Assembly (NCBI RefSeq): GCF_038562415.1
Contig: NZ_JBCFBA010000014.1
Span: forward strand, 62,001-126,000
From: Solidesulfovibrio sp.
Lineage (GTDB): Bacteria > Desulfobacterota > Desulfovibrionia > Desulfovibrionales > Desulfovibrionaceae
Reading direction: 5' to 3'
DNA: 64,000 nucleotides
The position numbers were made by a program, and so were the translations under genes. The notes beneath the pieces were generated by a model. The model worked only from the letters and a program-made list of their open reading frames with translations, did no database searches and had not been told where the DNA came from. Below, one piece after another: positions 41,121 to 63,619 of this stretch (positions are counted from its first letter, which is position 1; each line of letters begins with the position of its first letter).

Positions 41121-41166
41121 TTGGTTGCGGGGGTGGGATTTGAACCCACGATCTTCGGGTTATGAG
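41121..41166 (-). repeat. left attachment repeat: displaced 3' half of tRNA-fMet
   Basis: These 46 bp are identical to 63574-63619, the tRNA-fMet sequence from the anticodon loop to the CCA end. Beyond 41166 the sequence departs (AACTAAGAGC), so there is no 5' half and this is not a working tRNA. It marks the integrase-proximal junction of the element. Confidence 0.92.
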
Positions 41167-41283
41167 AACTAAGAGCAGTTTTGATGCTGGTTTGCATAGA
41201 AGGATATTTACATTGAAATAGTTGGAATTTTAGAGCGAAGAATAGTATTGACTTGTACGGATTTTGACCTATTTTGGCCTTGC

Positions 41284-41386
41284 GTGTTGGGAATAGTGTT
41301 GGGAGCAGAGCCGGCGAAATATCCCGCTGCGCTTCGGTTCTCAGACTTAAAGGGGCGACTATTTCGCTCCCAACATCCTCCCAACA
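41284..41386. repeat. TGTTGGG arm-type repeats at left end
   Basis: TGTTGGGA occurs at 41285-41292 and 41297-41304 (12-bp period), and its complement TCCCAACA at 41368-41375 and 41379-41386 (11-bp period), between the left att copy and the integrase ATG. One or two helical turns of spacing, and related repeats at the right end (63501-63527), fit integrase arm-binding sites. Confidence 0.6.
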
Positions 41387-41397
41387 AGGAGGCCGCC

Positions 41398-42573
41398 ATG
41401 CCAGCAAAGGAACGCTTTCGGACGGATTATGTCGGGGTGTTCTACATCGTAGGGACCGCCGTTACCTCGGACAGACCCGAGCGGATTTATTACATCCACT
41501 ATCGCCGCGACGGAAAGCTCGTCGAGGAAAAAGCCGGCCGCCAGTTCCAAGACGCCATGACCCCGGCCAAAGCCTCTCGCATCCGGGCGGAACGGATCGA
41601 AGGCAAGGCGTTGTCCAATCAGGCTCGCCGGGATGAAGCCAAGGCCGCCAAGGAGGCCGAGGAAGGACGCTGGACCATCGCCAAGTTGTGGGAGGCGTAC
41701 AAAGCCGGGAAGCCGGGCCTCAAAGGCCTCGTGACCGACGAGAACCGCTACAAGAATTTCATACGCCCCACCTTTGGCGGCAAGGCTCCTGCTGAAATCA
41801 TCGCCTTGGACGTGGACCGGTTGCGGATCAAGCTGCTCAAGACCCATCGCCCCGGCACAGTCAAGAATGTCCTGGAACTACTGCGACGAATCATCAATTA
41901 CGGCTGCAAAAAGAACCTGTGCCCCGGGCCGGGATTCGTGGTGGAACTTCCCCGGGCGCAAAGCCTCAAGACGGAAGACCTCACCCCGGAGGAGTTGGCC
42001 GAATTGCTCCATGCCATTGACGAGGACGATCACCCTTTTGCCGGGCCTATCATGCGCTTGGCCCTCTTCTCGGGCCTGCGGAAATCGGAAATGCTCAAAT
42101 TGCAGTGGAGTCATATCGACTTCCGAAACGGTGTGATTCACCTCCCCGACGCCAAGAGCGGACAGGATGAGAAAATTCCCCTCAGTGACACGGCAAGGGA
42201 ATTGCTCGAATCCCTGCCGAGGGACAGCGATTTTGTCTTTCCAGGTCGGGCCGGCGGTCAGCGTGTCTACATCCAGCGGTACGTTAACCGCATCCGGGAC
42301 AAGGCCGGCCTGCCCCGGAATTTTCGGGCGCTGCACGGCCTGCGGCACGTTTACGCGTCCATGCTGGCCTCAAGCGGCAAGGTGGACATGTACACCCTGC
42401 AAAAGCTTTTGACCCACAAAAGCCCATCGATGACCCAGCGATACGCGCACCTTCGGGATGACGCCATGAAGCGGGCGGCTGACGTGGCCGGCGAAATCGT
42501 GAATGGTCTTGCTGCGGACATTGCGAAAGTCCCAACACAGAAGGTGGTCCCCATGGCCAAGGGGCAACGGTAA
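41398..42573 (+). CDS. tyrosine recombinase (element integrase)
   Basis: A 391-aa phage-type site-specific recombinase. The N-terminal arm-binding region lies at about 1-75, a SAM-like core-binding domain at about 90-190, and the catalytic domain holds Arg in SGLRKSEML (near 226), HGLRHVYAS (His and Arg near 313-316), LLTHKSPSMTQRYAHL and Tyr near 347. The start at 41398 has GGAGG just upstream; the frame extends to 41248, but that would run through the repeats. It sits 230 bp from the left att repeat and should recombine attP with the tRNA-fMet 3' end. Confidence 0.95.
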   Translation: MPAKERFRTDYVGVFYIVGTAVTSDRPERIYYIHYRRDGKLVEEKAGRQFQDAMTPAKASRIRAERIEGKALSNQARRDEAKAAKEAEEGRWTIAKLWEAYKAGKPGLKGLVTDENRYKNFIRPTFGGKAPAEIIALDVDRLRIKLLKTHRPGTVKNVLELLRRIINYGCKKNLCPGPGFVVELPRAQSLKTEDLTPEELAELLHAIDEDDHPFAGPIMRLALFSGLRKSEMLKLQWSHIDFRNGVIHLPDAKSGQDEKIPLSDTARELLESLPRDSDFVFPGRAGGQRVYIQRYVNRIRDKAGLPRNFRALHGLRHVYASMLASSGKVDMYTLQKLLTHKSPSMTQRYAHLRDDAMKRAADVAGEIVNGLAADIAKVPTQKVVPMAKGQR

Positions 42574-42590
42574 ATCAGAGAGGTCAACCC

Positions 42591-42863
42591 ATGAGACAGA
42601 TTTCCATACAAATCCCTGACGATGCCTTGACCGCCCTTATGCTCCCCCAGGAGGGGCAAGACCGGATCGGTGGTGAACTGCTGTTGCTGGCGGCCGCCAA
42701 GCTCTACGAGCTGGGCCGGCTTTCTTCGGGAGCCGCCGCCCGTCTTGCCGGGATTCCACGCACTGTGTTTCTTGCCCGCCTGGCTGAATATGGCGTGGAC
42801 ACCTTCGATCTGACCGAAGAGGAGTTGCACGGGGAGGCGCGCCTTGCCGCGAACCATCTCTAA
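42591..42863 (+). CDS. UPF0175-family antitoxin-like protein
   Basis: A 90-aa protein with the UPF0175 pattern IQIPDDALTALMLPQ ... LLLAAAKLYELGRLSSGAA followed by ARLAGIPRTVFLARLAEYGVD, which contains a helix-turn-helix-like segment. GAGAGG precedes the ATG. The last 20 bp overlap the DUF3368 gene. UPF0175 and DUF3368 genes are a known paired arrangement regarded as a type II toxin-antitoxin module. It probably represses its own operon and neutralises the PIN-like partner. Confidence 0.85.
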   Translation: MRQISIQIPDDALTALMLPQEGQDRIGGELLLLAAAKLYELGRLSSGAAARLAGIPRTVFLARLAEYGVDTFDLTEEELHGEARLAANHL

Positions 42864-43335
42864 CACCTCCCCGTTCCAATACCTGCACCAAATTGGCCAG
42901 TTGGAGTTACTGCCGGCCCTGGTTCAGAACGTCCTTGTGCCGCCTGCCGTGGTGGACGAGTTGGCCGCCGGTCGGGCCATGGGGCTTGATCTTCCCTCTC
43001 CCGAGGCGTTGCCGTGGGTGACGATTCAGGCCCCGGCAAGCATGGCCGCCCTGCCTCTTGTCCGGGACCTCGGCCCGGGAGAATCCCAGGCCTTGGCCCT
43101 TGCTCTCGAATATCCCGGTGCCGTGGTGATCCTGGACGACAAGCTGGGGCGGCACGTGGCCCGCTCGCTTAGCGTTCTCCACACGGGCACGCTTGGTGTC
43201 CTGATTGACGCCAAAAGGGCCGGGCTACTCCCTGCCGTTGCTCCCTTGATCGACAGGCTTCACGCTTGCGGTTTTCGTCTCACGGCAAAGGCACGGCAAG
43301 CGGTGCTCAATGTGGCGGGTGAAACAGCAAGATAA
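42844..43335 (+). CDS. DUF3368 PIN-like toxin
   Basis: A 163-aa PIN-domain-like protein: SNTSPFQYLHQIGQLELLPAL at the N-terminus (first Asp replaced by Asn, as is common in DUF3368), VPPAVVDELAAGRA, LGPGESQALALALEY and VVILDDKLGRHVARSL with the acidic pair. It is likely an RNase toxin acting on its host when the UPF0175 partner is lost, helping to keep the element. The start overlaps the antitoxin gene by 20 bp. Confidence 0.85.
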   Translation: MPRTISNTSPFQYLHQIGQLELLPALVQNVLVPPAVVDELAAGRAMGLDLPSPEALPWVTIQAPASMAALPLVRDLGPGESQALALALEYPGAVVILDDKLGRHVARSLSVLHTGTLGVLIDAKRAGLLPAVAPLIDRLHACGFRLTAKARQAVLNVAGETAR

Positions 43336-43365
43336 TCCTGTGCGAGAGGGGAGAAGGGGCAGGCG

Positions 43366-43731
43366 ATGGGCATCCAATTCGTGGTTGATGAAGCAGGGAA
43401 TCCCATTTCCGTCGTGGTCCCCCTCGCAGAATGGGAGGCCTTGCTTGCCAGGATGCTGTCTTTTGATCCGGAAGACGAAACCCTACGATATCCTTCCTGG
43501 ACCCCCGCAAACCAGAAGCGCTTCTTGGAGTCCTTGTCAGCGAAAAGCCTTCCTGCGGCATCTCGCCGCAGGGGAAAGAGAGCCGCATCCTCCAGGGTGC
43601 CCGGGAGGCGTTGGCCATCGCCAGAGGTGAAATGCCTCAGGACGCCAATGCGTTGGGCAGCGATGCCTATCCCACCGTTCCTTGGATGGTCGAAGCCATC
43701 AAGCCCTTGCCTGACTATCGGCTTGAGGTGA
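43366..43731 (+). CDS. small antitoxin-like protein, possibly frameshifted
   Basis: A 121-aa frame. The first 45 residues (GIQFVVDEAGNPISVVVPLA, EWEALLARM) look like a DNA-binding antitoxin of the prevent-host-death kind. After about residue 60 the composition turns Arg/Ser-rich, which suggests the wrong frame. In the downstream gene's frame, upstream of its ATG, runs GISPQGKESRILQGAREALA followed by IARGE, a natural-looking antitoxin tail. A frameshift near 43535 is therefore possible. Ribosome site GGGAG upstream. Confidence 0.5.
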   Translation: MGIQFVVDEAGNPISVVVPLAEWEALLARMLSFDPEDETLRYPSWTPANQKRFLESLSAKSLPAASRRRGKRAASSRVPGRRWPSPEVKCLRTPMRWAAMPIPPFLGWSKPSSPCLTIGLR

Positions 43732-43946
43732 CGTTCGCTGATGGACTCCATGGGGTTGTGGACCTCTCGCACATACCGCACACGGGCGTGTTCGCGGTGT
43801 GGGACGAGCCCGGATATTTCGAGAAGGCGACCATTGATCCCGAGACGTGGACGGTTTGCTGGCCCAATGGTGAAGATGTGGCCCCGGACGCCATGTACGA
43901 AGAGGTGAAGAAGCAACAGGGTGAAGGTGGTAGCCTTCCACGGTGA
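43632..43946 (+). CDS. DUF2442-family protein
   Basis: A 104-aa protein with the DUF2442 signature PLPDYRLEVTFADGLHGVVD LSHI, then FAVWDEPGYFEKATIDPETW and TVCWPNGEDVAPDAMYEEV. The ATG at 43632 has AGAGG upstream and the gene overlaps the end of the previous frame. DUF2442 proteins are commonly encoded next to DUF4160 or antitoxin-like genes in what are thought to be toxin-antitoxin loci. The biochemical role is unknown. Confidence 0.8.
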   Translation: MPQDANALGSDAYPTVPWMVEAIKPLPDYRLEVTFADGLHGVVDLSHIPHTGVFAVWDEPGYFEKATIDPETWTVCWPNGEDVAPDAMYEEVKKQQGEGGSLPR

Positions 43947-44067: not shown

Positions 44068-44781
44068 ATGGACGATGGATCACAACAATATTCATTTTGG
44101 TTATGGCAATATGAAGCGAGAAGCCAAAAACCAAACCACTTAAAAACATTCAAAGGAAAAGACTTTTCTCATGAAGGATGCCCCAATAATATAATTCCGC
44201 CCAGTGAAATCATTCAATCAATTATTGACGATAGCTTTTCTCCAATCGGACCAAGCTTTGTTGGCCTTGGGTATTATGGATCTTCAATAGAAAAGTTGGA
44301 ATGTTACGATGCTATACCTGTTACAATTGACATGATGCAAAAGAGGCACAAAAAGGTTCCTGTCGCAGTAAATGTAAACGAAGATAATGAACGGTTGCTG
44401 TGCGATTTTATGTGTTTTTTAACAATATACAAATATAATGAATATATGAGCACGATTTTGAGATTTCCGGATAATAAAGATGAAACAGTGCTAAAAAAAT
44501 TGAATGACGATATGGTTGAAGCTGATGAGCGATTAAATAGTCTTTTGCTAAACAAGCGTAAGGCCGTCAGAAAAGATGGTGTCTCAAGAGCATTAGGACT
44601 TTGGCTCTTCGATTATTGTCAAGAGCACGCATGCGGTTGTCCAACCGCTGAGGCTGCTTTACGTGATACTGGATACTTGCAACAGTTAAGCTATGACAAA
44701 GAATATCGTCATTTTGCAAGATTACTGGCAAATGCCAAGAAATGCATAGAAGCCTGCGAAGTCTTGCCGATAAGCGCCTGA
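44068..44781 (+). CDS. A/T-rich cargo gene of unknown function
   Basis: A 237-aa protein with no family I recognise. It is far richer in A+T than its neighbours and uses codons such as AAA, ATA and AAT freely, pointing to recent acquisition from another genome. Segments are PSEIIQSIIDDSFSPIGPSF, VPVAVNVNEDNERLLCDFMC and GLWLFDYCQEHACGCPTAEA, then a helical C-terminus HFARLLANAKKCIEACEVLP. There is no signal peptide or membrane segment. GGGGG stands upstream. Being A/T-rich cargo between the toxin-antitoxin and replication modules, it could be a defence or regulatory gene, but nothing shows this. Confidence 0.75.
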   Translation: MDDGSQQYSFWLWQYEARSQKPNHLKTFKGKDFSHEGCPNNIIPPSEIIQSIIDDSFSPIGPSFVGLGYYGSSIEKLECYDAIPVTIDMMQKRHKKVPVAVNVNEDNERLLCDFMCFLTIYKYNEYMSTILRFPDNKDETVLKKLNDDMVEADERLNSLLLNKRKAVRKDGVSRALGLWLFDYCQEHACGCPTAEAALRDTGYLQQLSYDKEYRHFARLLANAKKCIEACEVLPISA

Positions 44782-44808: not shown

Positions 44809-44868
44809 GTGACACTATCGGTCAACCGGATAGTGTCACTGACAGTTCCTTAGCGGGGGCCACTGTCA
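44809..44868. repeat. two adjacent inverted repeats
   Basis: GTGACACTATC (44809-44819) pairs perfectly with GATAGTGTCAC (44829-44839), and TGACAGT (44840-44846) pairs with ACTGTCA (44862-44868). They lie directly next to each other upstream of the AlpA/Xis-like gene. They may be operator sites for the element's regulators or a recombination/replication signal. Confidence 0.55.
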
Positions 44869-44956: not shown

Positions 44957-45160
44957 ATGGACATGGGTAGAAATCTTCAGGGAATCGACGAATATCGGGC
45001 GGCTGAAAAATTGGGAGTCAGCGTCCACACGCTGCGGATGTGGCGACATCGGGGGAAAGGGCCAGTTTATTCAAAGCTCGGCCGGCGGGTTTTGTACCTG
45101 TCCCCGGATTTGGACAGCTATCTGGAAAGCTGCCGGGTTCAGCCTGTCAATGCGGCATAG
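44957..45160 (+). CDS. AlpA/excisionase-like helix-turn-helix protein
   Basis: A 67-aa MerR/Xis-fold DNA-binding protein (IDEYRAAEKLGVSVHTLRMW, then RHRGKGPVYSKLGRRVLYLS and PDLDSYLES), the HTH_17 layout with helix-turn-helix, wing and Tyr-containing strand. GGAGAAGG lies upstream. Placed between integrase and primase as in phage satellites, it may be the recombination directionality factor or the activator of the excision-replication genes. Confidence 0.8.
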   Translation: MDMGRNLQGIDEYRAAEKLGVSVHTLRMWRHRGKGPVYSKLGRRVLYLSPDLDSYLESCRVQPVNAA

Positions 45161-45170: not shown

Positions 45171-45398
45171 ATGAACACCAAACAGAAGCGCCCCCGTCCC
45201 GGCCAGGGGATCGAGGGCGCGAAAGATGAATCCAGCAAGCCCCTTCTGCCCGTATCCGCCCCGGTCGTCAATTGGGACAGCCCCAAATTGTGGCGAGCAC
45301 TCCGCAAATTCAACCGTAACTTCAAGCGGATTGGCAGGCTCCAGGAAGAGAATGCAGTCCTTCTTGAGGAGATGAAGCGAATACAGAGGGTGGCGTAG
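45171..45398 (+). CDS. small basic protein with C-terminal coiled coil
   Basis: A 75-aa product, 10 bp behind the AlpA-like gene, with GGGGG upstream. The N-terminus is Lys/Pro/Arg-rich (NTKQKRPRPGQGIEG) and the C-terminus is a short coiled coil (FKRIGRLQEENAVLLEEMKR). No family recognised. Likely co-transcribed with the AlpA-like gene. Confidence 0.6.
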   Translation: MNTKQKRPRPGQGIEGAKDESSKPLLPVSAPVVNWDSPKLWRALRKFNRNFKRIGRLQEENAVLLEEMKRIQRVA

Positions 45399-45539: not shown

Positions 45540-47477
45540 ATGGCTCGCATCGAAAAGAAAGACGTGCTCGACCGCTTGGACTTCCGAGCTTTTTATGGTT
45601 CGGAATTGCCAGAACTGCGAGGGCAAGGCGACGAGATGAATGCGCCATGTCCCTTTCATGACGATCACGGTCACCACTTCTACGCCAATGCCAAGACCGG
45701 CTTCTTTAAATGCCAGCGCTGTAACGCCGAAGGCGACGTGTTCCGGTTTTTCCAGGACCGGCACGGCGTGGACTTCAAGGACGCCCTCAACGAGTTAGCT
45801 ACGCGCGCAGGACTCGGCAATGGCAATGGGAATGGTAATGGTCAGAAGCGCCAGCAGAAAAATGGTGATGACCATGCCAGGCCCATACTGGCAAATAAGA
45901 CGGCCTTCTATCATTACAAGGATGAGCAAGATCAATACCTTTTCACAACGGTTCGCTTCGAAGAGCCGGGGAAGAAAAAGACCTTTCGCCAGTGGTGCTA
46001 TGACTTCGAACGGAAGGAATATGACCAGACGATAAAGGGTGTGCGGCTTGTTCCGTACAACCTCCCCGACGTGTTGCAGGCCAATGAGATTTTTCTTGTC
46101 GAGGGAGAAAAGGACGTGGAGTCCTTGCGCGCTTTTGGCTTGGTCGGTTCGTGCAACCCGATGGGGGCCGGGAAGTGGAAGGACGACTACAACGGCCATT
46201 TTGCGGGCCGGCACGTGGTCATCCTCGAGGACAACGACGACCCGGGCCGGGAGCATGGGGCCATGGTGGCGAAGGCCCTCTATCCTGTAGCCGCCTCGGT
46301 TAAAGTGGTGGACCTGCCCGACCTCCCCGAGAAGGGGGACATCAGCGACTGGATTATCACCGGGGGCACCAAGGATGCCTTGCTTGCCCTGGCCGACCAG
46401 GCAGCCGCCTGGAAGCCCTCCTGGGCCATGGATTGCGTCAGCGCCGCCGACTTCATGAAAGTGGAGATTGTCCTTACTCCCTTGGTCGACGGCCTTCTCA
46501 ACGAGCGCGAGAGCCTTCTTATTTGCGGGCCGTCCGGCCTGGGGAAAAGCGTCCTGACCCTCAATATGGCCCTGGCTTGTGGGTTAGGAGGCGACGCGGG
46601 GCTTTGGGGCATGTTCCCCCTTGTCCGTCCCCTTCGCACACTCTTCATTCAGTCGGAAAACAGCGCCGCCGGCACACAAGCCCGCCTACGCAAGATCATC
46701 CAGGCCATGCCCGAGATGGCCCCGGCCCTGGAAAACATCATCATGCCCCAGAACATCCGCATGACTGGGGAGCTTACAGACGAGGACTTTCAGCGCCGGA
46801 TTGTGGATGCCTGCCGGCGGTTCTTCGTGGACCTTCTGGTCCTTGATCCGCTGATTTCCTTCCACGGCCAAGATGAAAACGACAATGCGTCGATGCGCCG
46901 GTCTTTGGACTGCCTGACGGCCATTTGCGACCAAGCCAACGTCGGCACCATCGTCGTGCATCATGTGGACAAACAGACCGCGGACAACGGCGTTTTCTCC
47001 GGGCGCGGTGCGTCGGCCATTGGCGATTGGGCGGCGAACATCCTGCTTATGAAGCCCGTGGAAATCGACGGCGAACGCTCCAACGTGATTGAGCTCCTGC
47101 ACCAAAAGGCCCGCAACTTCGAGGCGGCCAAGCCATTCTTCCTGGAGCGGCGGGCGGACCTCTCTATGGTTCGTACGGATAACCCCAAGAAGCGTGGCAA
47201 GGACGCGGAGCCTATTCAAGTGGTGGTTGCTGCCCTTGAAGGGCTTGGAGGGAAGGTTGGTAGAAAAAAGGATCTCTACGATGCCGTGGCCGAAGCTACT
47301 GGTAAGCCGGATACGTCTGTTCGCCGTATCGTCCAGGTTGCGGTTGCTCAATGCGCCATCCACGAATGGGAGGGTGAAAAGCGCTCTCGGGGCATGGGGG
47401 GTGGGTACTGCCTGCCTCATTTCCGCCATTTCCGCCAAAACAGCTTGGCGGAAATAGAGAGGTATAAAGATGAATAA
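45540..47477 (+). CDS. primase-helicase (CHC2 zinc finger, TOPRIM, RepA-like ATPase)
   Basis: A 645-aa replication protein. A CHC2 zinc finger is at 37-61 (Cys37, His40, Cys58, Cys61), followed by SDGDVFRF-like EGDVFRFFQDRHGVDFKDAL, a Gly/Asn linker (GNGNGNGNG) and a TOPRIM region (IFLVEGEKDVESLRAFG near 185; VVILEDNDDPGREHG near 225). Then comes a RecA/RepA-type AAA_25 helicase with Walker A CGPSGLGKSVL (about 329) and LVLDPLISFHG. The C-terminus is a winged-helix-like segment. It should unwind and prime the element's own origin. The last codons run into the iteron cluster, so origin and gene overlap. Confidence 0.9.
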   Translation: MARIEKKDVLDRLDFRAFYGSELPELRGQGDEMNAPCPFHDDHGHHFYANAKTGFFKCQRCNAEGDVFRFFQDRHGVDFKDALNELATRAGLGNGNGNGNGQKRQQKNGDDHARPILANKTAFYHYKDEQDQYLFTTVRFEEPGKKKTFRQWCYDFERKEYDQTIKGVRLVPYNLPDVLQANEIFLVEGEKDVESLRAFGLVGSCNPMGAGKWKDDYNGHFAGRHVVILEDNDDPGREHGAMVAKALYPVAASVKVVDLPDLPEKGDISDWIITGGTKDALLALADQAAAWKPSWAMDCVSAADFMKVEIVLTPLVDGLLNERESLLICGPSGLGKSVLTLNMALACGLGGDAGLWGMFPLVRPLRTLFIQSENSAAGTQARLRKIIQAMPEMAPALENIIMPQNIRMTGELTDEDFQRRIVDACRRFFVDLLVLDPLISFHGQDENDNASMRRSLDCLTAICDQANVGTIVVHHVDKQTADNGVFSGRGASAIGDWAANILLMKPVEIDGERSNVIELLHQKARNFEAAKPFFLERRADLSMVRTDNPKKRGKDAEPIQVVVAALEGLGGKVGRKKDLYDAVAEATGKPDTSVRRIVQVAVAQCAIHEWEGEKRSRGMGGGYCLPHFRHFRQNSLAEIERYKDE

Positions 47478-47611
47478 ATTCAATGACCTGATTTCCGCCA
47501 AATTTCATTTCCGCCAAAGGGGTTGGCGCAAATGAAAAGACAAGTAATTTCAGTACATTCCATTTCCGCCATTTCCGCCCCCCTAAAGGGGGAAGTCATT
47601 CTGGCGGAAAT
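47419..47611. repeat. iteron cluster ATTTCCGCC, candidate replication origin
   Basis: ATTTCCGCC occurs at 47419, 47428, 47491, 47507, 47562 and 47571 (first base), with its complement GGCGGAAAT at 47447 and 47603 and one variant GGCGCAAAT at 47525. There are thus eight exact copies in 193 bp, two pairs being head-to-tail with no spacer. An A/T-rich interval (47453-47490) lies inside. The cluster overlaps the end of the primase-helicase gene and fills the gap behind it, the usual place for an iteron origin. Confidence 0.75.
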
Positions 47612-47663
47612 GACTTTCCCCCGCCGGGGGATGGGGTCCGCGATGGCGGCAAAGGGGAGCGGA

Positions 47664-47834
47664 ATGAAACAGGTCGAGATGAGTGAAAAGCCCAAGGGAA
47701 CCATCCAGGCGTCAGATGACGAACGGCTTGAGGCCGAAGCCTTACGCTGGTGTGAGCGCTTAGGCCGCAAGTTGGACCGGAAGCGCAGCAAAGGTAAAAC
47801 CCGCCGAGGCACCTATGATAATCGCAGTCGATAA
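47664..47834 (+). CDS. small basic protein
   Basis: A 56-aa protein from the ATG at 47664, which has GGGGAG 6 bp upstream; frames starting at 47533 or 47642 would run through the iterons. It is helical and basic (DDERLEAEALRWCERLGRKL, then DRKRSKGKTRRG). It overlaps the ERCC4-nuclease gene by 20 bp. No family recognised; it may bind DNA. Confidence 0.5.
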   Translation: MKQVEMSEKPKGTIQASDDERLEAEALRWCERLGRKLDRKRSKGKTRRGTYDNRSR

Positions 47835-49452: not shown

Positions 49453-49461
49453 GGAGCCACC

Positions 49462-49855: not shown

Positions 49856-49893
49856 CAGCAACCCCGGCACTCCCGGGTGACAGGAGAATGACC

Positions 49894-51570: not shown

Positions 51571-51589
51571 GTTCTGCCAAGTGGTTTCC

Positions 51590-54223: not shown

Positions 54224-57200
54224 TCAGTCTGTTGATGTAGCTTTCTGGTCTGGCTTGGAGAGCCGCATCTCCCACGCTCGTTCGAGCCTGGCTCTTGTGA
54301 CGGCACGAAGGCGCTGCAATCCCATCATGCGCGCCATCACGGCTACAGGATCTTCAGCCGGGGCGAGGGAAGTGGAGACAGCACATGCGAGTGCGGCGAG
54401 TTCGGCCAAACTGATTTCATCTGCCGGGCGTGACTCGCCGTTCACCTCCATCCGAAAAAGGTCCCATTGGCCGAGCGTGGTACCGACGGGCCAGAAAAAG
54501 ACACCCCCATCTTCCTCTGCGAAGCCCGTAAATTCCTGAGAGGCAACCTTGAGGACCTTCTCCCGAATTTTGCTGCCAGCCTTGTAGAGGCCGCACCGCT
54601 TGGCGATGCGTCTGGCCAGGACATCACTCCTGACAGGACCCTCCGCGGCCACAATTTCCCGAATGGCGTCGGCGAGTGCTGTTTCCTGACCATCGGCGAG
54701 AAGGTCTGGACTTGTCGTCGTCACATCTGGAGCGGCTACACTACTTGTCTCTTGAGCAACGCTGCGGAAGGCATAGACCGCTTCTGCCGCAGGCTCAGAG
54801 GGCACATCCGCTGCCGGGGCAGAGAGCAAAGAGAGCTGGCGCGGGCTGTCGTTTCCATCCGCTGGGGATGCCCTCATTTCGTCTGAAGTTGTCTCTGGCG
54901 CCTCGCGCTGAGCTGCTTCCTGACGCGCCCTTTCCGCCTCGGCTTTGGCCTGTTCCTCTCGGGTTTCTTCAAGGATCTTTCGCAACTTGGTGTCAACGGT
55001 CTTCGCGGCCGTCTCGGCATCATGCCACCAATCCGTGGACCATGTGCGCACGATCCTCCAGCCCAAGCCCTTCAGTACCTGCTCGCGGAGCCAGTCCCGA
55101 TCCCGTGCCGTAGCAGCCCGGTGATAGGTAGCGCCATCGCACTCAACACCAGCCAGATAGCGGCCAGCCCGTTCGGGATCGACCACACCCAGGTCGACGC
55201 GGAAAGCGGAGACACCGACCTGAGGGTGGACCGTCCATCCCCGACGGGACAAAGCTGCGGCCACGATTTCCTCGAAGGGTGACTCAAAGTCACCTTGTAG
55301 TGCAGTTGTTTCCTCGGCCAAGGCCCTGATGCCACGCTGGGCATAATCGAGAAAAAGCTTCAGGTCGGCCACTCCCTTGGCCTTGGTACGCATCAGGTCG
55401 ATTTGATCAGGCAGAAGACTCGTGAAAATCCGCAGCCCGTGCTTGGCCCGGGTGACAGCCACATTGAGTCGCCGCTCCCCGCCATCTTTGTTCAACGGGC
55501 CGAAGTTCATGGACACCCGACCTGCGAGGTCCGGGCCATAGGTGATGGAGAAATAGATCAGGTCGCGCTCGTCACCTTGGACGTTTTCCAGATTCTTCAC
55601 GAAAACCGGCTCGGTCAGGTCCTCGGAGAAAAACCTTTCCAACGCAGTATCGCGGCGACGCTCCTCGTCAAGGAGGTCCTCGATCAGCTTTTGTTGCTGC
55701 GAGTTGAACGTTACCACGCCGATGGATTTACCGCTGGCCACGAAGTCCGAATCCTGGAGATGACGAACGATATCGGCCACGACCGCCTTGGCTTCAACCT
55801 GATTCGTGCGGCTCCCGCCTTTGTCATAGTGCCCACCTTCCACCAAGTGCAGGGATACCGCGCTGTCGTCGGTCACGGGCGAAGGGAACGTGACAAGGCC
55901 ACTGCCGTAATACCGGTTGTTCGAGAAGGCGATGAGGCTTTCGTGGCGGCTGCGGTAGTGCCAATTCAGGCGTTGGCAGGGCAGCCCGGCGCTCAGGCAC
56001 TCGTTAAGGATACTTTCCATGTCGCCGCCGATCTCCACGCTATCGTCAGCATCCTCGTCCTCGGCCCGGTTGAAGAAATTGGTTGGCGGCAGTTGCTTGG
56101 GGTCCCCCACGACCACGACCTGCTTCCCCCGGGCCATGGCCCCGATGGCGTCCCACACCGGGATTTGACTGGCTTCATCGAAGACTACCAGATCGAACAG
56201 GGCTCGGCTTGGTGGCAGGTACTGGGCAATGGACAGCGGACTCATCAAAAGACACGGCGTCAACCGGGGCAAGGCCGTAGGCAACTGTTCGAGAAGCTGT
56301 CGCAGGGGCAGGTGTCGGCGTTTTTTCGCCATTTCACGACGCAAGACGCCCCATTCCGAGGCGCGTTTGGTCTCCTCGGCCTCGGGCACATCCTGGCGGA
56401 CAATCGCCCGAATGCAATCCCTGGCCAGATTGGCTAACACACGGTCAAGGTGCCGAAAATCATCAATGACCTGTTCGTGTTCCACTGAGACGAAGCGTCG
56501 CAACAGAACGTCGCCGTCCACCACGGCTCTGAGCCACCAACGGCAGTAATTGATCGCAAAAGCCTCCCTGGCCTGCCCGGCGACAATGGATCCTTTGTCC
56601 AGGGCTTCGGCCAGTACGCCCAGCCCGACGGCATGCGCTTCTTCCACGACTCGGTTCCAGGCGCACCAGAGGCGCAACAATTGGGGGCGCGCCAATATGT
56701 CGCGGCAATAATCGGCAAGCTGTGAGGACGTCAGTGCCTCCAGGCTACGTGTCCCGGTTGTGTCGCTGCCACACCGCTCTTTCAACGTAATCAGTGCGGT
56801 CCGCAACCGAGCGACTTTGGCTTCGAAATCGGCGCCGGCCCGAGCCACCACGCTTGAGGGGGAAAGCAGAAGGTTGTTTTCGCCGACAAGCCGTTGGAGG
56901 GCTTCCACCCCGGCCTTGAGCGTCTCGGGACAGTCATAGAGGCCGGCTAGACTGGCCTTGAGTCCTTCTCCCAATTTACGGGCCAGGACAAGGTCCTCGG
57001 CTCTGGTCTCCACTCCTTTCCAGAGGCCGCCAGTTGCCGGGCCCAGCGCGGTATAGGCGGAGAGTTTCGTGTCCAGATCCCGTATTTTGACGAGGGCATT
57101 GAAGATGGTGGCCGCACGATTCAGCTTTTGCCAGAGGCGGTCGAACGCTGCTTGAAAGGCGACTTGGCGTTCAGGCCAGCCCCAGGTGTTCTCGATAGGG

Positions 57201-60200
57201 TCTTTCAAGTCCTCGAAGGCGGCAAGCTTGGCGTCCAGATCCCGAATACCAATGAGCCGGTCCAGGTCCTCTGTGTCATTCGGAGTCGCGGCCGGTTTGG
57301 CTTTGGCTACAGCCTGGAGAGCCTTGCGGACTTTGCCCCGCGCCAGGGTATTCTTGGGCCACCAGGCCGTGGCCGCCTGCCGCCAAGTTTGACGATGTCC
57401 CTCAAGATCAAGGTTCAAAGCCTCAGGGAGATAATCCCGAGACAGTTGGTCCCACAACCGCTGGCGCTCCGTAACCAGGGCCTGGCCCTCCTGCAAACGG
57501 GTCAACGCGGTCTTATGCACGGCCTTGGCTGTGGTCGCCAAGGAAGATATCTCTTGCCGCAATCCGTCGAGTCCTGATGAAATGGGAGCGTCCTGACTTT
57601 CGCCAAAAGGCGATACAGAGATTGCCTTGGCGCCTGCGCGGTATCGGGACAATTTCCGTTCCAGCTCTTGTACCGACTCTTCCAGTTCAGGCCATGGTGC
57701 TAAACTTTCGTCGGCAGGATCGGCCGTGGGGGCCCCCGCGGCGTCTTGTTCCAGAAGCTCGGCCAGGAGTGCCCGACGAGGGCCAACGAAGGATTCCCCT
57801 TCCCCGAGTCGGACAAGGAGGTCCGGCCCGTCATGGCGCAGGAGAAAGCTCCAGTCCCGACCGGATGCCTCGCGCAGGAGGCCGGCCAGCGAGGTCAGGG
57901 CCTGTCGAACGGGTTCGGCCAGGGCTGCTGCGGGTAAACCGGTTGCGGCAAAAAAATGGGCACCGGCGGTTTCTGTCTCCTCGCAAACCATGAGCGCCTG
58001 GCGCAGGGCCTCCGACAGGGAATCTTCCCACCCTGGCGACCATTCCGTGGCCGTGACCAGGGCCAGACTATCCTTGGGTGCATCCATGACCTGGCCCGCA
58101 TTGATGCCGAGCCGGGTGGCAATGTCCATGAGCCTGTCGAGGTTTTCCTTGTCATGGATTCCCGGATCAGACCAACGGAGGGGAATCATCACCATGTCTC
58201 GGGCGGAGAGAGTCTTGCTTATGGCGGTGAAGACGCTCAGGCCATTGGGCCAGCGGCGGTGGAGGGTGTTGACGAGGGCGTTTAGCTGGTCGCGCAGGAA
58301 ACCCATGCGAGCTGCTTCTTGCTCCCATCGTGATTGATCGACGCTGACGCGAGCATCCCAGGATTGCTGGAGTTGCTTGAGGACTTCCAGCTTGTTGGCC
58401 TTGTGAGAATGGAGCTCCAGGCAAAATTCTCCCAGTTCGACCTCTTTGAGCCGGCGATAGACCACGTCCAGAGCGGCGGTTTTCTCGGCCACGAAGAGCA
58501 CCGTTTTGTTCATGGCCAGACATTGGGCGATGAGGTTGGCGATGGTCTGGCTTTTCCCGGTGCCGGGAGGACCTTCCAGCACGAAATCATTGCCCTGGGC
58601 CGCGGCCACCACTGCGGCGAGTTGAGAGGAATCAGCCGGGAGAGGACAAAAATTATGAGATGGGTGCAGGTGTCGGTCCAGGTTCCCCGGTTCGATGAAG
58701 GCGGCTCGATCTCCGTATGTCTCAGTCGGGGTATCGATCAGGTGGCGCACCACGGGGTTTCGTTTCAATTCCTCCGTGTGGTCGGTGAGGTCTTTCCACA
58801 TGAGGTATTTTGCAAAAGAAAACTGTCCAAGGCTGACCTCTTCGGCCACTTCCCAGCCGGGCATGTCCTTGATGGCCGTGGCTACAGTCCGCCAGATAGC
58901 GAGCACGTCCAACCCCGAATCATCATGCGGTAGTTCAGACTCGAGGCCCGGGAGGGACAGGTGGAAATCCTGACGCAGCATTTCCAGCAAGGTCAGGTTA
59001 AAGCGCGGTTCGTCTTCGTGGCTTGCAAGGGAGAAACCCGAGCGGACGGCTTGGCGGTTTAGCGTGACTGGAATCAGTATCAGAGGAGCCCGCAGCCGGC
59101 GCCCGTCCTTGCCGTCCTGTGTCCAGACCAGGAATCCGAGCACAAGGTACAGCGTGTTGGCGCCGCCCTCCTGAAGGGCCATGCGAGAGGCGCGGAACAG
59201 TTCCACCAGCCGACGCTCCATGTCCTCCTCGGACAGGCAGGTGTAGAGTTCGCCTTTGCCGAGGCCCTCCCGCGCATGTTCGCGTCCGACCTCTTCTTTA
59301 TGACGCGCTTGATGAATGGTTTCGTCGCGCGGGTCGTTCCCCTGCATCAGGCGAATGCCCGGCCGTAGCTTGAACCGCTTGCCGTCGGCCAGCATGTCCT
59401 CCAGGTGACCGGGGTCGGGAACCATGAGCTCTACGACCCGTCTGGTAGAGCGAAAGTTGAGCAGGTTGTTACGCAGGGAAAGATCCAGAAGCTTGCGCTG
59501 CCAATTTCCGAGTCGGTCCTGAGGACCACTCGGAGTCGTGCTCTCAGGTTGCGTTTCGACTTCCATGAGGTCCGGGACATCGTCGAAATCAAGAACATCG
59601 GGAATCTGCGTCGCGGACACCTCTGGAGGCGCTGGCTGGACGAGACTTTCTTCGCTGGCCAAGGGCAAAATTCGCTCCATCCTCGCCCGTTGGATATCCA
59701 GCGCCAGTTGAAAAGGCCGCGGCTCTTCCTCGGAAACTTGGCGTGCTCCTACTTCGCATGACCATTTGAACTTGGCGGGGTCCTGCTGGCCACGCACCGC
59801 AAGGGTGGGCTCGAAAAGAAGGATTTCCTGAAGTTGCAGGCGCTTTCGAAGGGCTGTGACATCGTCGATGGCGGTGGTCGCAAAGACTTCGGGTACGAGC
59901 CAAGCGCCGGCAAAGGCGTGCCCCTCTATGAAAACGAGGAGCGGATGGAGTCGGCATTGCTCGAGACATGAGGCGAAAAGGAATGTCAGGTCGAGGCATG
60001 TGGCGAGGCCATTCTGGAGAATTTGCTCAGGCGAGCGGACTTTCTGGCCCTGCTGTTCGAAGCCGGCTGGCGGGAGGGCATAGTTTAGGGACAGCGAGCA
60101 GATAGCTTGCCAGATGGCGGCCATGATTTCCCACACCCGGAGCTTGCCGCCTGTTTTGTATCCTTCCAGGGCAGATTCCTTCCCCGTCTGGTGCAGAAGG

Positions 60201-60670
60201 TCAGCTGCCTTCCTCAGCACCCGGTCCACGGCCGGATCATTGGGCCTCACGAAGGCCGCCGCCAGTTCGGGAAACTGATTCAATCCACCCCATTCATTGC
60301 GGGCGAGCAGTGCTACTGACTGCTCTAATCGGCATAAGCTGGTTTCACCTTGACGTAACTCGAATACAATTTGACTCTTTTCGGCCTCGGTAAGCCGAAA
60401 CAATTGCCCCCCGTCCAGATTCAAGTCCAAGTCCGTGATTGTATAGCGTTGCTGCGGGCTGATTTTGCTTATTTGCCAGTCCCGAGATCGGAAGAAGGCT
60501 GGAACGGAGTGCAGGGAAAGGACGAGGTCCTCTCTGGCGTGATCGCCGTTATTTTCAACAGAGAGTTCTAATAGGACAGGAATGGAGTTCTGATGCAAAG
60601 CAAAAGATACCTTTGGGGAAAAAGCACTCTTGATGGCCATCTCTATGGTTGTATCAGCTAATTCAGTCAT
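54224..60670 (-). CDS. DUF4011 / SF1 helicase / nuclease / DUF3320 defence-type protein with transglutaminase-like N-terminus
   Basis: A 2148-aa protein; the ATG at 60670 has GAGGA upstream. Domains: a beta-rich N-terminus (1-120), a transglutaminase-like fold (about 140-300; Cys225 in NGLATCLDLTFLFAS, His251 in GHAFAGAW, acidic residue in LLFEPT), DUF4011 (about 385-480; RLGNWQRKLLDLSLRNNLLN), a split SF1 helicase (Walker A EGPPGTGKSQT near 700; Walker B VVFDEASQIP near 1494; NVAVTRAKHGLRIF near 1740), a Vsr/MTES_1575-like nuclease (about 1798-1885; SPFEEIVAAALSRRG, RVDLGV, GVECDGATYH) and DUF3320 near 1990-2040 (EGPVRSDVLARRIAKRCG). Such helicase-nuclease giants are found in defence islands and several protect against phage. 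The effect of this one is inferred. Confidence 0.9.
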   Translation of the reverse strand: MTELADTTIEMAIKSAFSPKVSFALHQNSIPVLLELSVENNGDHAREDLVLSLHSVPAFFRSRDWQISKISPQQRYTITDLDLNLDGGQLFRLTEAEKSQIVFELRQGETSLCRLEQSVALLARNEWGGLNQFPELAAAFVRPNDPAVDRVLRKAADLLHQTGKESALEGYKTGGKLRVWEIMAAIWQAICSLSLNYALPPAGFEQQGQKVRSPEQILQNGLATCLDLTFLFASCLEQCRLHPLLVFIEGHAFAGAWLVPEVFATTAIDDVTALRKRLQLQEILLFEPTLAVRGQQDPAKFKWSCEVGARQVSEEEPRPFQLALDIQRARMERILPLASEESLVQPAPPEVSATQIPDVLDFDDVPDLMEVETQPESTTPSGPQDRLGNWQRKLLDLSLRNNLLNFRSTRRVVELMVPDPGHLEDMLADGKRFKLRPGIRLMQGNDPRDETIHQARHKEEVGREHAREGLGKGELYTCLSEEDMERRLVELFRASRMALQEGGANTLYLVLGFLVWTQDGKDGRRLRAPLILIPVTLNRQAVRSGFSLASHEDEPRFNLTLLEMLRQDFHLSLPGLESELPHDDSGLDVLAIWRTVATAIKDMPGWEVAEEVSLGQFSFAKYLMWKDLTDHTEELKRNPVVRHLIDTPTETYGDRAAFIEPGNLDRHLHPSHNFCPLPADSSQLAAVVAAAQGNDFVLEGPPGTGKSQTIANLIAQCLAMNKTVLFVAEKTAALDVVYRRLKEVELGEFCLELHSHKANKLEVLKQLQQSWDARVSVDQSRWEQEAARMGFLRDQLNALVNTLHRRWPNGLSVFTAISKTLSARDMVMIPLRWSDPGIHDKENLDRLMDIATRLGINAGQVMDAPKDSLALVTATEWSPGWEDSLSEALRQALMVCEETETAGAHFFAATGLPAAALAEPVRQALTSLAGLLREASGRDWSFLLRHDGPDLLVRLGEGESFVGPRRALLAELLEQDAAGAPTADPADESLAPWPELEESVQELERKLSRYRAGAKAISVSPFGESQDAPISSGLDGLRQEISSLATTAKAVHKTALTRLQEGQALVTERQRLWDQLSRDYLPEALNLDLEGHRQTWRQAATAWWPKNTLARGKVRKALQAVAKAKPAATPNDTEDLDRLIGIRDLDAKLAAFEDLKDPIENTWGWPERQVAFQAAFDRLWQKLNRAATIFNALVKIRDLDTKLSAYTALGPATGGLWKGVETRAEDLVLARKLGEGLKASLAGLYDCPETLKAGVEALQRLVGENNLLLSPSSVVARAGADFEAKVARLRTALITLKERCGSDTTGTRSLEALTSSQLADYCRDILARPQLLRLWCAWNRVVEEAHAVGLGVLAEALDKGSIVAGQAREAFAINYCRWWLRAVVDGDVLLRRFVSVEHEQVIDDFRHLDRVLANLARDCIRAIVRQDVPEAEETKRASEWGVLRREMAKKRRHLPLRQLLEQLPTALPRLTPCLLMSPLSIAQYLPPSRALFDLVVFDEASQIPVWDAIGAMARGKQVVVVGDPKQLPPTNFFNRAEDEDADDSVEIGGDMESILNECLSAGLPCQRLNWHYRSRHESLIAFSNNRYYGSGLVTFPSPVTDDSAVSLHLVEGGHYDKGGSRTNQVEAKAVVADIVRHLQDSDFVASGKSIGVVTFNSQQQKLIEDLLDEERRRDTALERFFSEDLTEPVFVKNLENVQGDERDLIYFSITYGPDLAGRVSMNFGPLNKDGGERRLNVAVTRAKHGLRIFTSLLPDQIDLMRTKAKGVADLKLFLDYAQRGIRALAEETTALQGDFESPFEEIVAAALSRRGWTVHPQVGVSAFRVDLGVVDPERAGRYLAGVECDGATYHRAATARDRDWLREQVLKGLGWRIVRTWSTDWWHDAETAAKTVDTKLRKILEETREEQAKAEAERARQEAAQREAPETTSDEMRASPADGNDSPRQLSLLSAPAADVPSEPAAEAVYAFRSVAQETSSVAAPDVTTTSPDLLADGQETALADAIREIVAAEGPVRSDVLARRIAKRCGLYKAGSKIREKVLKVASQEFTGFAEEDGGVFFWPVGTTLGQWDLFRMEVNGESRPADEISLAELAALACAVSTSLAPAEDPVAVMARMMGLQRLRAVTRARLERAWEMRLSKPDQKATSTD

Positions 60671-60932
60671 CAAAGGGTCCTCGTGACAAAAAATACTTAC
60701 AATACTTGAAAGGAGATAGCCCTGTTAGATGAAACTCGCTTTTCGAGTGGAACGAAAGGGGACAAGGAGAAGAGGCCTGGCGGGAAAAGAGGCCAAGTGG
60801 GGGGAACAGGTAACCAATGTCTACACCAAGCATAATCGGTAATCCTGTCTCTGCCAGTTCGAAAAGCGGATAACCTCTTATGCCAAGCCAACCGACACCT
60901 GGCAACGGAAAAGCGGTGGTATGAAATCCTGA

Positions 60933-61225: not shown

Positions 61226-62992
61226 CTATAGTCTCCGCCCTTTCAAAGTACTGATCCATTCTATGAATTTATCAAGTTCCACAATGCATTCGTCAAAAGT
61301 CTGGCCAAAAATACTACTCTTGACGTAAGGTGAATTGTTCTTATGGGTCGAAAGTGAGTCTCGAATGCTTTCAATAATGCGAGTCCTGTCCTCATATCGA
61401 AAAACATATCGTCCAGGAGGGGTCCAATGTCCAAATGCCAGAGAATCTTTCACATGGTGTGAGTAACTGAGGGCCGCTAGGATTTCAAGCTTATCAAAGG
61501 CATAGCTAAACCTGGAATCAGACGGAATAATACCTCGAAACTGTGGTGTTAATAAATTATGAAGCCAGTCATTGAGGGGTGTCTGGCGACGATCCATCCC
61601 CTCGAGAAGTCTTGCCGGCCTGCTGCCCTCATCAAACAGACAGAAGGCAGGGAGTTGTTCGACGGCGACGATGTCCTTTCGGTGCTCTCGATGGATAGGG
61701 GTGCGGAACATTTCTCCAAGAAACATTAATCCGTGCTCTCCCGCTTCAATCGAGCCAATTCCTAAGGTGTAGAAGAGTAGGCAGGCAGGATAGACCTGTA
61801 AATCAAGCCAGTAGATGGTGCCATTTTCGTTGCGGCGAGTAGCCAACCTAGCAAGCGCGTTCATCCATGTAGCATAATGCCACCTCTCAATCCAATACCC
61901 CCCCGCGGCGGCCATCGCTATTAAGGTTCCACAAGCAGCCTCATATGCGTGAACCCGTGCCGTGAAGGTTTGCGAGTCTGGATCAGGTCCACCCTGTACT
62001 GCAAACATTGCCCCTGCGGTCGTTTCGCGTACACGATCCACTTCGCCACTTATTAAATCAGCAAGTCGAATGCGGTGAATCGGGTCAGCAAGATAGCTTT
62101 TAAGACTGACAACAGCGGCCCCGGTTGATAATGGGTGTGGCCTGGAAAATTGATCCAGTGCGTCGACAAGACGGTTGAGTTCAGAGAAAAAATTGTCCGC
62201 ATCTGCGATGGGAATGGTTTGCGCACGCCGATGTTCAATCAGTCGCATTGCTGAAATGCTTGGTTCGCCTCGCAATGCCCAAAAATAGCTAAACCGACGA
62301 GAAGCAGACCGTTCGATGGCATTCCGTAACGCGGGATCCCATTCCGCTGACCACCCGCAGGTGATTAAACCGAATTCGTCAAGAATTCTATCCAACAATA
62401 TATTAAATTCTGATGGGTACGATTCGAGCTCAGTGTGTGTATTACGGATTCGGGTATCAAGGTAATCGCCATGGACCTTGAATAAACAGCAACGAGTATG
62501 GATCAGAGGCATTGCCCCGTGTATCTGATCTAGAGAACTGAGCACTGTTGAAACAATTCCTGCATCGACTAATGCCGTCTCCATGAGTCTGTCGAAATTG
62601 GTAGTGATGATGACACGGACATAACCCTTTGCTGCGAGACTAGCGATTGCCCGATGCGCTGCGGTTGGTGCCTTGATACCCTCCGCACGCTCCTCCTCAG
62701 AAGGTTCGAGATAGCTACGCAAAAGCTGTTGTCGTTCAGACGGAGTCTTGGCGAGCGCATCTAGAAGTTCTGAATAATCAGGTTCTTTACCGTACTTCTC
62801 ACGATACCAAAGGATGGGATCGGCTATGGTGGACTCGTCGGACACTTCTGCAAGCTTGCGCACAAGATCAAGTGTGATTTCCCATCCGGTTGGAATCCTG
62901 GCGGAACGCGACACTCCAGAACCGAGCAACAATGCATAGATGCCAGGATTGGCCTGGATAGAGAAGGCGAGGGAGTGTAGTGGGTCGATCAT
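61226..62992 (-). CDS. SIR2-domain protein, probable NAD-consuming defence effector
   Basis: A 588-aa protein. An N-terminal SIR2-like domain (about 15-290) shows LLLGSGVSRSARIPTG (24-35), the catalytic-site TTNFDRL (Asn132, Asp134), KVHGDYLD (His174) and TCGWSAEWDP (211-220). The remaining 300 residues are unrecognised, with AACGTLIAMAAAGGYWIERW, a hydrophobic WLDLQVYPACLLFYTLGIGS and YVFRYEDRTRIIESIRDSLS. SIR2 domains of this kind act as NAD hydrolases in many anti-phage systems, halting infection by NAD depletion (family knowledge). The C-terminal part may sense phage. A/T-rich relative to the chromosome. There is no partner gene directly beside it; the helicase-nuclease lies 555 bp downstream in the same direction. 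Confidence 0.85.
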   Translation of the reverse strand: MIDPLHSLAFSIQANPGIYALLLGSGVSRSARIPTGWEITLDLVRKLAEVSDESTIADPILWYREKYGKEPDYSELLDALAKTPSERQQLLRSYLEPSEEERAEGIKAPTAAHRAIASLAAKGYVRVIITTNFDRLMETALVDAGIVSTVLSSLDQIHGAMPLIHTRCCLFKVHGDYLDTRIRNTHTELESYPSEFNILLDRILDEFGLITCGWSAEWDPALRNAIERSASRRFSYFWALRGEPSISAMRLIEHRRAQTIPIADADNFFSELNRLVDALDQFSRPHPLSTGAAVVSLKSYLADPIHRIRLADLISGEVDRVRETTAGAMFAVQGGPDPDSQTFTARVHAYEAACGTLIAMAAAGGYWIERWHYATWMNALARLATRRNENGTIYWLDLQVYPACLLFYTLGIGSIEAGEHGLMFLGEMFRTPIHREHRKDIVAVEQLPAFCLFDEGSRPARLLEGMDRRQTPLNDWLHNLLTPQFRGIIPSDSRFSYAFDKLEILAALSYSHHVKDSLAFGHWTPPGRYVFRYEDRTRIIESIRDSLSTHKNNSPYVKSSIFGQTFDECIVELDKFIEWISTLKGRRL

Positions 62993-63500
62993 ATTCTATC
63001 GCATCTCGAAAGGATTGTTCAAAATTCGCAAAGGACTGCCCCGCCTAAGCCAGTAGTCAGGCAAGAGTGAACCGGAAAGCGAAACCGGATCATGAGCATT
63101 GATCTGCGTATTGTCGCTCCCTGCTCCACCTGTTGTCCGAAAGTATGGACTCGTTTGTGCCAAGCCCAAGGCAACATTGCAACGAGAATCGGGGCTCAGA
63201 GGTCCGAAGCGCCTATTCCAAGTGACCTTGAGGGCAAGCCGGGCAAGGTCCCGAGCTGGGCTTTCGTCGGTCTCGCGTGCAGTCGGCAAGGGCGAGGTGG
63301 CTCGCCTTGTGTCGAGAGGGGAGGAGGGGGGGCAAGTCTTGGCAGGAGGGCCGAGGGTTGACCGCAGACCACATTTCGATACCGCAGGGCGGGACGATCC
63401 CCCTTGCCGGGGCGCTGCCTCTTTGCTTTGGGACGTGCGCCCAGTTGGCCGCAGCCCCACGGCCGGCCCTGGTATTTGTATTGATTGCCACCCGTTTTGA
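62993..63500. other. right-end region without a supported gene
   Basis: Several overlapping frames of 80-155 codons are open on both strands, but none has a ribosome site or protein-like sequence. The part next to 62992 should contain the SIR2 promoter. The last 100 bp approach the TGTTGGG repeats and the tRNA. Confidence 0.4.
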
Positions 63501-63527
63501 TGTTGGGTGTTGGGTATAGTGTTGGGA
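63501..63527. repeat. TGTTGGG arm-type repeats at right end
   Basis: TGTTGGG occurs at 63501-63507, 63508-63514 and 63520-63526 (followed by A). The 21 bases 63507-63527 match 41284-41304 at the left end in 20 positions. Together with the left repeats they are candidate integrase arm sites. Confidence 0.6.
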
Positions 63528-63533
63528 AAGAAA

Positions 63534-63566
63534 AAGGGCCTACAGCCGATTTAGCCGTAAGCCCTT
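63534..63566 (-). terminator. element-borne terminator downstream of tRNA-fMet
   Basis: On the minus strand AAGGGCTTACGGC-loop-GCTGTAGGCCCTT is followed by TTTCTTTCCC, 8 bp after the tRNA CCA end. It closely resembles the displaced chromosomal terminator at 41081-41112 but differs in loop and inner stem. The element thus supplies both the tRNA 3' half and a terminator. Confidence 0.7.
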
Positions 63567-63573
63567 GGTTTCT

Positions 63574-63619
63574 TTGGTTGCGGGGGTGGGATTTGAACCC
63601 ACGATCTTCGGGTTATGAG
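63574..63619 (-). repeat. right attachment repeat within tRNA-fMet
   Basis: A 46-bp perfect copy of 41121-41166. It covers the tRNA from the anticodon loop to CCA plus one base. It is the tRNA-side junction of the element. Confidence 0.92.

Follow-up and report, generated by a model that had tools for sequence, protein, structure and literature searches.

How would an integrated element that has its own integrase and replication genes, and no recognisable gene for a phage head, move from one bacterium to the next? This question is raised by a 22,453-bp unit in a 64-kb stretch of contig NZ_JBCFBA010000014.1 (64,000 bp in full, hereafter the window), which lies between exact copies of a 46-bp repeat at positions 41121–41166 and 63574–63619. 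We conclude that the unit is likely a phage-satellite-like integrative element, which, judging from its gene content, probably spreads by borrowing phage particles. Sequence comparisons further indicate that its descent is mosaic: a replicon like that of capsid-forming phage-inducible chromosomal islands (cfPICIs) is joined to a right half of a capsid-less lineage. The new points are this mosaic origin, which ties capsid-forming and capsid-less satellite-like elements to a single common replicon, and an apparently exchangeable initiator–origin module. In addition, the element shows anti-phage ProA, together with a SIR2 candidate, as cargo of a satellite-like element, and it offers a DUF5681 protein as a candidate new packaging factor.

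Integration into the initiator tRNA gene

The original prediction had described a 22.4-kb element precisely bounded by a 46-bp repeat in tRNA-fMet, and this description held. The right repeat copy falls within an intact initiator tRNA-Met(CAT) gene on the minus strand (63575–63651; ARAGORN, Rfam RF00005), and the left copy is a remnant of the initiator tRNA 3′ end. This tRNA combines a C1:A72 mismatch with GGG/CCC in its anticodon stem, which we take to be the marks of an initiator. Each repeat copy adjoins one of two stretches, 41071–41120 and 63524–63573, which resemble each other in alignment and share an exact 20-nt block. The element thus seems to carry its own version of the region downstream of the tRNA, a terminator-like stretch at 63524–63573 that may act as the terminator.

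Comparison with the related genome G010 agrees with this arrangement. There, the tRNA end with its downstream region matches 41074–41166 (93 bp) at 96% identity, and on the tRNA-upstream side the window contig is 80% identical to G010 along 3.8 kb. Together with the repeats, this comparison supports the expected picture, in which an element bearing its own copy of a tRNA 3′ end integrates at that end. The G+C content is 57.0% in the element and 66.4% in the left flank. A search for the same segment without the repeats, run in part, found no other genome with the whole segment.

The site is used by other elements as well. At least two copies of the tRNA end enclose other DNA on one contig in four of the 13 other same-genus genomes (G004, G005, G006, and G008), and in G009 and G012 such copies lie on separate contigs. 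Integrases that adjoin the repeat in G004, G006, and G008 are 38–39% identical to that of the window element, so the initiator tRNA is a recurrent integration site in the genus. At the same tRNA site, G005 has another island, about 33 kb long, which encodes several very large proteins (L165, L166), and G008 has four tRNA-end copies (L157, L158), between which a stretch resembling a clustered regularly interspaced short palindromic repeat array and Cas-like genes were recognised by eye. Prophages of Desulfovibrio piger are described as often lying in tRNA genes, one group having few tail proteins (PMC12724379), and Desulfovibrio prophages are also treated in PMC6006170.

A replicon shared with head-bearing elements

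Profile searches confirmed the genes of the int–alpA–primase–ori layout that had been read from the sequence, and their order. The tyrosine integrase (41395–42573, plus strand; 392 aa from this start; PF00589, E 5e-27; phrog_1) is followed by an AlpA-like HTH_17 regulator of 67 aa (44957–45160, plus strand; PF12728, phrog_66, with TIGR01764 below its cut-off), which is called AlpA by similarity of type and lies upstream of the primase. The primase-helicase (45540–47477, plus strand) has CHC2 zinc finger and AAA_25 profile matches and a modelled C-terminal winged helix, and the probable origin is an iteron cluster of eight TTTCCGCC copies (47420–47610). Further right lie an ERCC4-type nuclease (47815–48291, plus strand; PF02732, phrog_3490) and a second HTH_17 gene, which is excisionase-like (Xis-like; 52121–52330, plus strand; PF12728; phrog_66, phrog_57).

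The original prediction had proposed a search for elements sharing the primase and iterons, and this search found them. The primase is about 70–88% identical, over the best segment, to proteins of six viral contigs and one genome, G080 (together L021–L027). At E 1e-75, a family-wide search matched it in five of 288 genomes, the window's own included; all matches in the phage collection were below 60% identity (92 records), and a scan of genome contigs gave 15 loci with a top identity of 42%.

All seven relatives contain, directly after the ERCC4 nuclease, homologues of the TerS-like, TerL, portal, scaffold-like, and capsid genes of L024, the capsid gene of L021 being cut by the contig end. In L024, PHROGs profiles identified a large terminase (E 1e-10), a portal (E 8e-5), a major head protein (E 8e-81), an Ad1 connector, and a head morphogenesis protein, and the TerS-like and scaffold-like genes, which have no PHROGs family, are named by position. 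The G080 element (L027) is complete: copies of a 50-bp repeat in tRNA-Lys, 15,922 bp apart, enclose integrase, primase, nuclease, and head block. Neither a tail nor a lysis family was matched by the six further open reading frames (ORFs) scanned in this element, a few small ORFs being outside the scan. These elements look like cfPICIs, which make their own capsids and are named beside P4-like elements, phage-inducible chromosomal islands (PICIs), PICI-like elements, and phage-inducible chromosomal minimalist islands as satellite types in PMC11389934. The window element shares with these head-bearing relatives, tail-family-free in their scanned ORFs, the primase/iteron/nuclease block, but it is the one locus of the eight (window and L021–L027) from which the head block is absent; it thus lacks the defining cfPICI feature, head and large-terminase genes, and it has 8.2 kb of cargo.

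More distant primase relatives (40–54% identical) lie in L028 (G002) and L029 (G023) beside proteins that look terminase-like and portal-like by eye; these proteins do not match the L024 set.

A putative initiator–origin module

The iteron cluster of the original prediction was borne out by word counts: TTTCCGCC occurs 13 times in the window, compared with a shuffle mean of 5.6, and none of 100 shuffles reached 13. All eight loci have a repeated word in the gap after the primase, which is GGCGGAA in the window (8 copies) and L024 (5), GGTGCCA in L021 and L022 (8 each), and GGCACAA in L023, L025, and L027 (6 each) and L026 (5).

The primase itself groups differently along its length. Over residues 1–548 the window protein groups with L021–L023 (89–91%), whereas over residues 549–624 it groups with L024 (66%, versus 42–51% to the rest). 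L023 also switches partners, from L021/L022 for the primase body (93–94%) to L025–L027 for the C-terminal part (64%). The nearest neighbour has the same iteron class in eight of eight cases for the C-terminal part and in five of eight for the body. The permutation figure for this pairing, 0.005, ignores relatedness among the eight sequences and serves as a guide only; as L025, L026, and L027 are nearly identical in the C-terminal part, the independent exchanges number about two.

A model of primase residues 536–645 (mean pLDDT, the predicted local distance difference test, 72; predicted template modelling score 0.60) contains three helices, mostly at pLDDT 85–92, and two short strands, the would-be wing, at about 60–72. 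Foldseek aligned it with many winged helices and winged helix-turn-helix regulators among solved structures, none of them below E 0.001. On the simplest reading of sequence and model, the C-terminal winged helix would bind the iterons, and domain and origin would be exchanged as a unit, which yields a testable rule: the winged-helix class predicts the iteron word. The replicons of Staphylococcus aureus pathogenicity islands and of P4-like satellites follow the same logic, with a primase-helicase initiator and cognate iterons.

The right half and its capsid-less relatives

The DUF5681 gene (48821–49279, plus strand; PF18932) occupies the position that the small-terminase-like gene has in the head-bearing relatives. 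It is followed on the plus strand by genes for three small coiled-coil-like proteins (49276–49855, starting at 49276, 49462, and 49655), whose homologues keep this order in L160 and L163, and by orf49888 (49888–50583, plus strand; 231 aa), a relative of a late gene of a prophage in genome G003. This last match reaches E 3e-23, with 53% identity over residues 6–127 and 56% over 88 residues, and orf49888 has matches at E 0.001 in four of 119 genomes, the window's own included. Since Ala, Gln, and similar residues abound in the protein, we make only a moderate claim of kinship from this similarity.

Homologues of the DUF5681 protein were found at E 1e-6 in 19 of 119 relatives, the window's own included; four of the matches (G023, G028, G063, and G067) are weak, with 26–34% identity in long frames. 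We compared twelve DUF5681 loci: the window, a sibling element described below, L158, L160–L163, and L167–L171. The ERCC4 nuclease adjoins DUF5681 or lies one gene away in seven of them (window, sibling, L160, L161, L162, L163, and L167) and is not near it in L158, L168, L169, and L170; L171 is a short contig. Gene order is most similar in L160 (G003): behind the nuclease come DUF5681, the trio of small proteins, the 50736 ORF, and the beginning of the 51590 ORF, and the right half of the window element is colinear with this locus from the nuclease to about 51.8 kb.

The sibling element (L030, L121) lies on the same contig as the window element (G000 contig 14, 41918 to about 60272), about 1.7 kb outside the left end of the window; its boundaries are copies of a 50-bp repeat in tRNA-Phe, 18,305 bp apart. 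It is 75% identical to the window element in the nuclease, 56–57% in DUF5681, and 74% in the Xis-like gene; the L024 counterpart of the window's Xis-like gene is 61% identical. In L162 (G022), the boundaries are formed by a 58-bp repeat in tRNA-Lys, with copies 18,974 bp apart. For L124, L160, L163, L167, and L168, the stretches searched contained no convincing boundary repeat. In 13 elements or stretches of this kind, some of them partial, tblastn found no match to TerL, portal, or capsid.

Several of these elements contain pieces that resemble phage late genes. In both the sibling and L162, one protein matches families of endolysins, tape-measure proteins, and injection transglycosylases, and the three large proteins of the sibling, two of them without a named function, are 80–95% identical in L171. 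Three genes of L163 (615, 259, and 197 aa) are homologous to, and colinear with, a trio of late genes in the G003 prophage (59%; 52% over 63 residues; 62%). This prophage has TerL, portal, and capsid by PHROGs, and its three late genes have no family. L167 encodes a 979-aa protein that aligns over 409 residues, at 32% identity, with a 2206-aa protein from a region of G004. From the portal family of the source phage of these pieces, and from its lack of tail families, we infer that this phage was short-tailed.

These comparisons also bear on the alternative that survives best, namely that the unit arose by decay of a cfPICI-like element or prophage whose head module was lost, leaving an immobile defence island. 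Such a loss would fit the presence of head genes in all seven other loci found of the primase clade. However, the reading frames of integrase, primase, nuclease, and regulators are open, the attachment repeats are perfect, and the DUF5681 block is common to independent capsid-less elements and colinear with L160, which argues for a block of its own and not a deletion remnant. We therefore consider decay rather unlikely.

Search for structural, packaging, and transfer genes

The element has about 26 gene candidates; 20 window ORFs were scanned against Pfam, 20 against PHROGs, and 10 against NCBIfam, with library coverage differing per ORF. None of those scanned matched a capsid, portal, large terminase, or relaxase family. 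Likewise, tblastn at E 1e-3 gave no match in the element for any of 29 proteins, which comprised 26 terminase, portal, scaffold, capsid, connector, and late proteins (from relatives, prophage, and viral contigs) and three sibling proteins, and neither profiles nor tblastn found a full phage morphogenesis and lysis gene set. Within the ORFs scanned, the earlier statement that no capsid, portal, terminase, or conjugation gene is recognisable in the element thus held for capsid, portal, large terminase, and relaxase. Two matches are worth recording: the second HTH gene (52121) also matches the small-terminase family phrog_57 (E 2.8e-7), behind excisionase families (3e-8), and the RadC-like protein matches a tail-protein family in PHROGs at E 0.018.

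The same scans speak to the idea that conjugation moves the unit, as an integrative mobilisable element or plasmid-like island in which the phage-like genes are baggage. Integrase, replication gene, and cargo would fit such an element, and one with only an origin of transfer would be compatible with the gene content. Among the ORFs scanned with Pfam and NCBIfam, however, no relaxase or mating-pair/transfer gene was found, and the closest relatives encode phage heads, which makes this explanation improbable, somewhat more so than decay.

With respect to packaging, the DUF5681 protein is a candidate factor, and a DUF5681 protein is reported among the structural proteome of a Salmonella phage (PMC8954984). 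We did not retain DUF5681 as a proven small terminase: the protein has a helical AlphaFold model (pLDDT 69), its best viral fold match reached E 0.005 with a template modelling score of 0.39, and it lacks a solved relative; the role is kept as an inferred one. The phage collection contained one DUF5681 record, which is unannotated. One phage record and nine of 68 loci make up the ten DUF5681 contigs considered below; in L177 and L178, DUF5681 follows a giant protein, which in L177 matches mostly families of unknown function.

Defence-type cargo

Two large defence-type genes total 8,217 bp, in agreement with the roughly 8.2 kb of the original prediction. The first encodes an anti-phage ProA-type helicase-nuclease of 2149 aa (54224–60673, minus strand) with DUF4011, AAA_11/12, REase_MTES_1575, and DUF3320 domains and a PDC-S37 match. 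It matches NCBIfam model NF058533 over its whole length with 2243.6 bits, above the curated cut-off of 1500. The second is a SIR2-domain defence candidate of 588 aa (61226–62992, minus strand), which matches PADLOC candidate PDC-S65 over residues 1–579; among solved chains, SIR2 proteins, for example 8in8 and 8jkz, are the nearest to it. At E 1e-20, the SIR2 protein was found in one of 99 genomes, the window's own. ProA was found at E 1e-100 in two of 14 same-genus genomes, the window's own and G009, where a contig-end piece contains one stop codon. In the genome sets searched, the defence genes thus occur rarely, as cargo and not as core genes. Near the integrase, a UPF0175 and DUF3368/PIN-like pair (42591–43335, plus strand) is toxin–antitoxin-like and matches PADLOC candidate PDC-S70. 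The PDC-S65, PDC-S70, and ProA families, with predicted functions, are here carried together on a satellite-like element.

Proposed life cycle and its weighing

As a phage-satellite-like element, the unit would recombine through Int at the 46-bp core in the initiator tRNA, with the gene restored, as can be read from the intact copy. The AlpA-like regulator and the Xis-like protein would drive expression and excision, and the primase-helicase, which is co-inherited with its iterons, is predicted to recognise them through its C-terminal winged helix and would replicate the excised circle. Since no head or large-terminase gene is recognisable, the element would use the particle of a helper phage, probably redirected by DUF5681 and the adjoining small late-gene-like proteins. 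Judging from their family names, ProA, SIR2, and the toxin–antitoxin-like pair may protect host and element from competing phages.

That the element instead relies on a phage-like (gene-transfer-agent-like) cluster conserved in the host genus, which has a portal homologue in all 14 same-genus genomes and is colinear in the three compared (G000, G010, and G003), is very improbable, as the L163 late-gene pieces are closer to the G003 prophage (59–62%) than to the cluster (29–34%) and no terminase was recognised in the cluster, by eye only.

This phage-like structural cluster (L275; G000 contig 20, about 36.6–54.1 kb) contains portal and capsid homologues of the G003 prophage (capsid 73%) and, by eye, fibre-like genes; neither integrase nor terminase was recognised nearby. 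It is a candidate gene transfer agent or domesticated prophage.

The satellite interpretation of the original prediction is supported by three observations: the layout is real, the replicon relatives are head-bearing without a tail family in the scanned ORFs, and capsid-less relatives with tRNA repeats exist. Gram-negative PICIs have an integrase, an AlpA-like gene, a primase, and an origin, sit at a tRNA site, and lack structural genes. The window element shares with them integrase and repeats, AlpA-like gene, primase, iteron origin, and the lack of capsid, portal, and large terminase, but it is larger, and DUF5681 stands in place of the known genes for redirecting the packaging of a helper (TerS, Rpp, or capsid-size genes). 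It differs from P4-like satellites in that our scans named no sid/psu-type gene. If the host is a member of the Desulfovibrionaceae, satellites there seem little described within a limited literature search, which does not prove their absence.

More tentatively, these elements could represent a satellite family that neither makes nor resizes a capsid. In such a family, DUF5681 would be a specificity protein and a differing piece of helper late genes would alter the particle taken from the helper, its DNA-ejection proteins for example, with the initiator–iteron unit exchanged between capsid-forming and capsid-less members; the helper phage of that capsid-neutral family would probably be short-tailed.

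Several points weigh against a satellite. The search for an empty site supported integration through the tRNA end of G010, but a clean site with both flanks intact was found in neither G010 nor G005: the tRNA-downstream side of G010 differs from the CooS flank of the window and is Cas3-like by eye, and in G005 the CooS region lies near the tRNA repeat but is inverted, and another island fills the site. By 8-mer counts against single-letter shuffles, iterons were not detected in L163, L160, L124, and L029 and are weak in the sibling and L162 (4, versus a shuffle maximum of 3). Structure searches with DUF5681 gave no clear match, its packaging role being argued from position, and it lies near TerL in two of the ten contigs (L174, L185) and beside a tape-measure gene in one (L176). 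At 22.5 kb, the element exceeds the 7–20 kb given for satellites in PMC13376191. Finally, excision, induction, and particle formation are steps predicted from the gene content.

Remaining genes of the element

To the left of the AlpA-like gene, a RelB-like match below cut-off and a DUF2442 gene (43366–43946, plus strand) form further cargo, and the latter has homologues in the tRNA-fMet islands of G004, G006, and G008. They are followed by orf237 (44068–44781, plus strand), an AT-rich gene (38% G+C) without a family, and by a perfect inverted repeat with 11-bp arms (44809–44839), which was read from the sequence upstream of the AlpA-like gene and is a possible operator. A small conserved protein (45171–45398, plus strand) has matches in L124 and L167. 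A small ORF that overlaps the iterons (47523–47834, plus strand) is similar in L021–L023, and orf170 (48302–48814, plus strand), without a family above cut-off, lies between the nuclease, which is 75% identical to that of the sibling, and DUF5681.

Beyond orf49888, an ORF of 300 aa (50736–51638, plus strand) is 64% identical over 88 residues to L160, its coding status being uncertain, and a small ORF on the minus strand (51077–51331) has no assigned function. A second small minus-strand ORF (51590–51847) has a secretion-signal-like start by eye, its first 40 residues being 60% identical in L160. Downstream of the Xis-like gene lie orf192 (52401–52979, plus strand), which is 75% identical in the capsid-less element L163, and the RadC-like JAB protein (53264–53773, plus strand; PF04002). 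Outside the repeats, the flanking CooS protein has 6b6v as its top match among solved structures.

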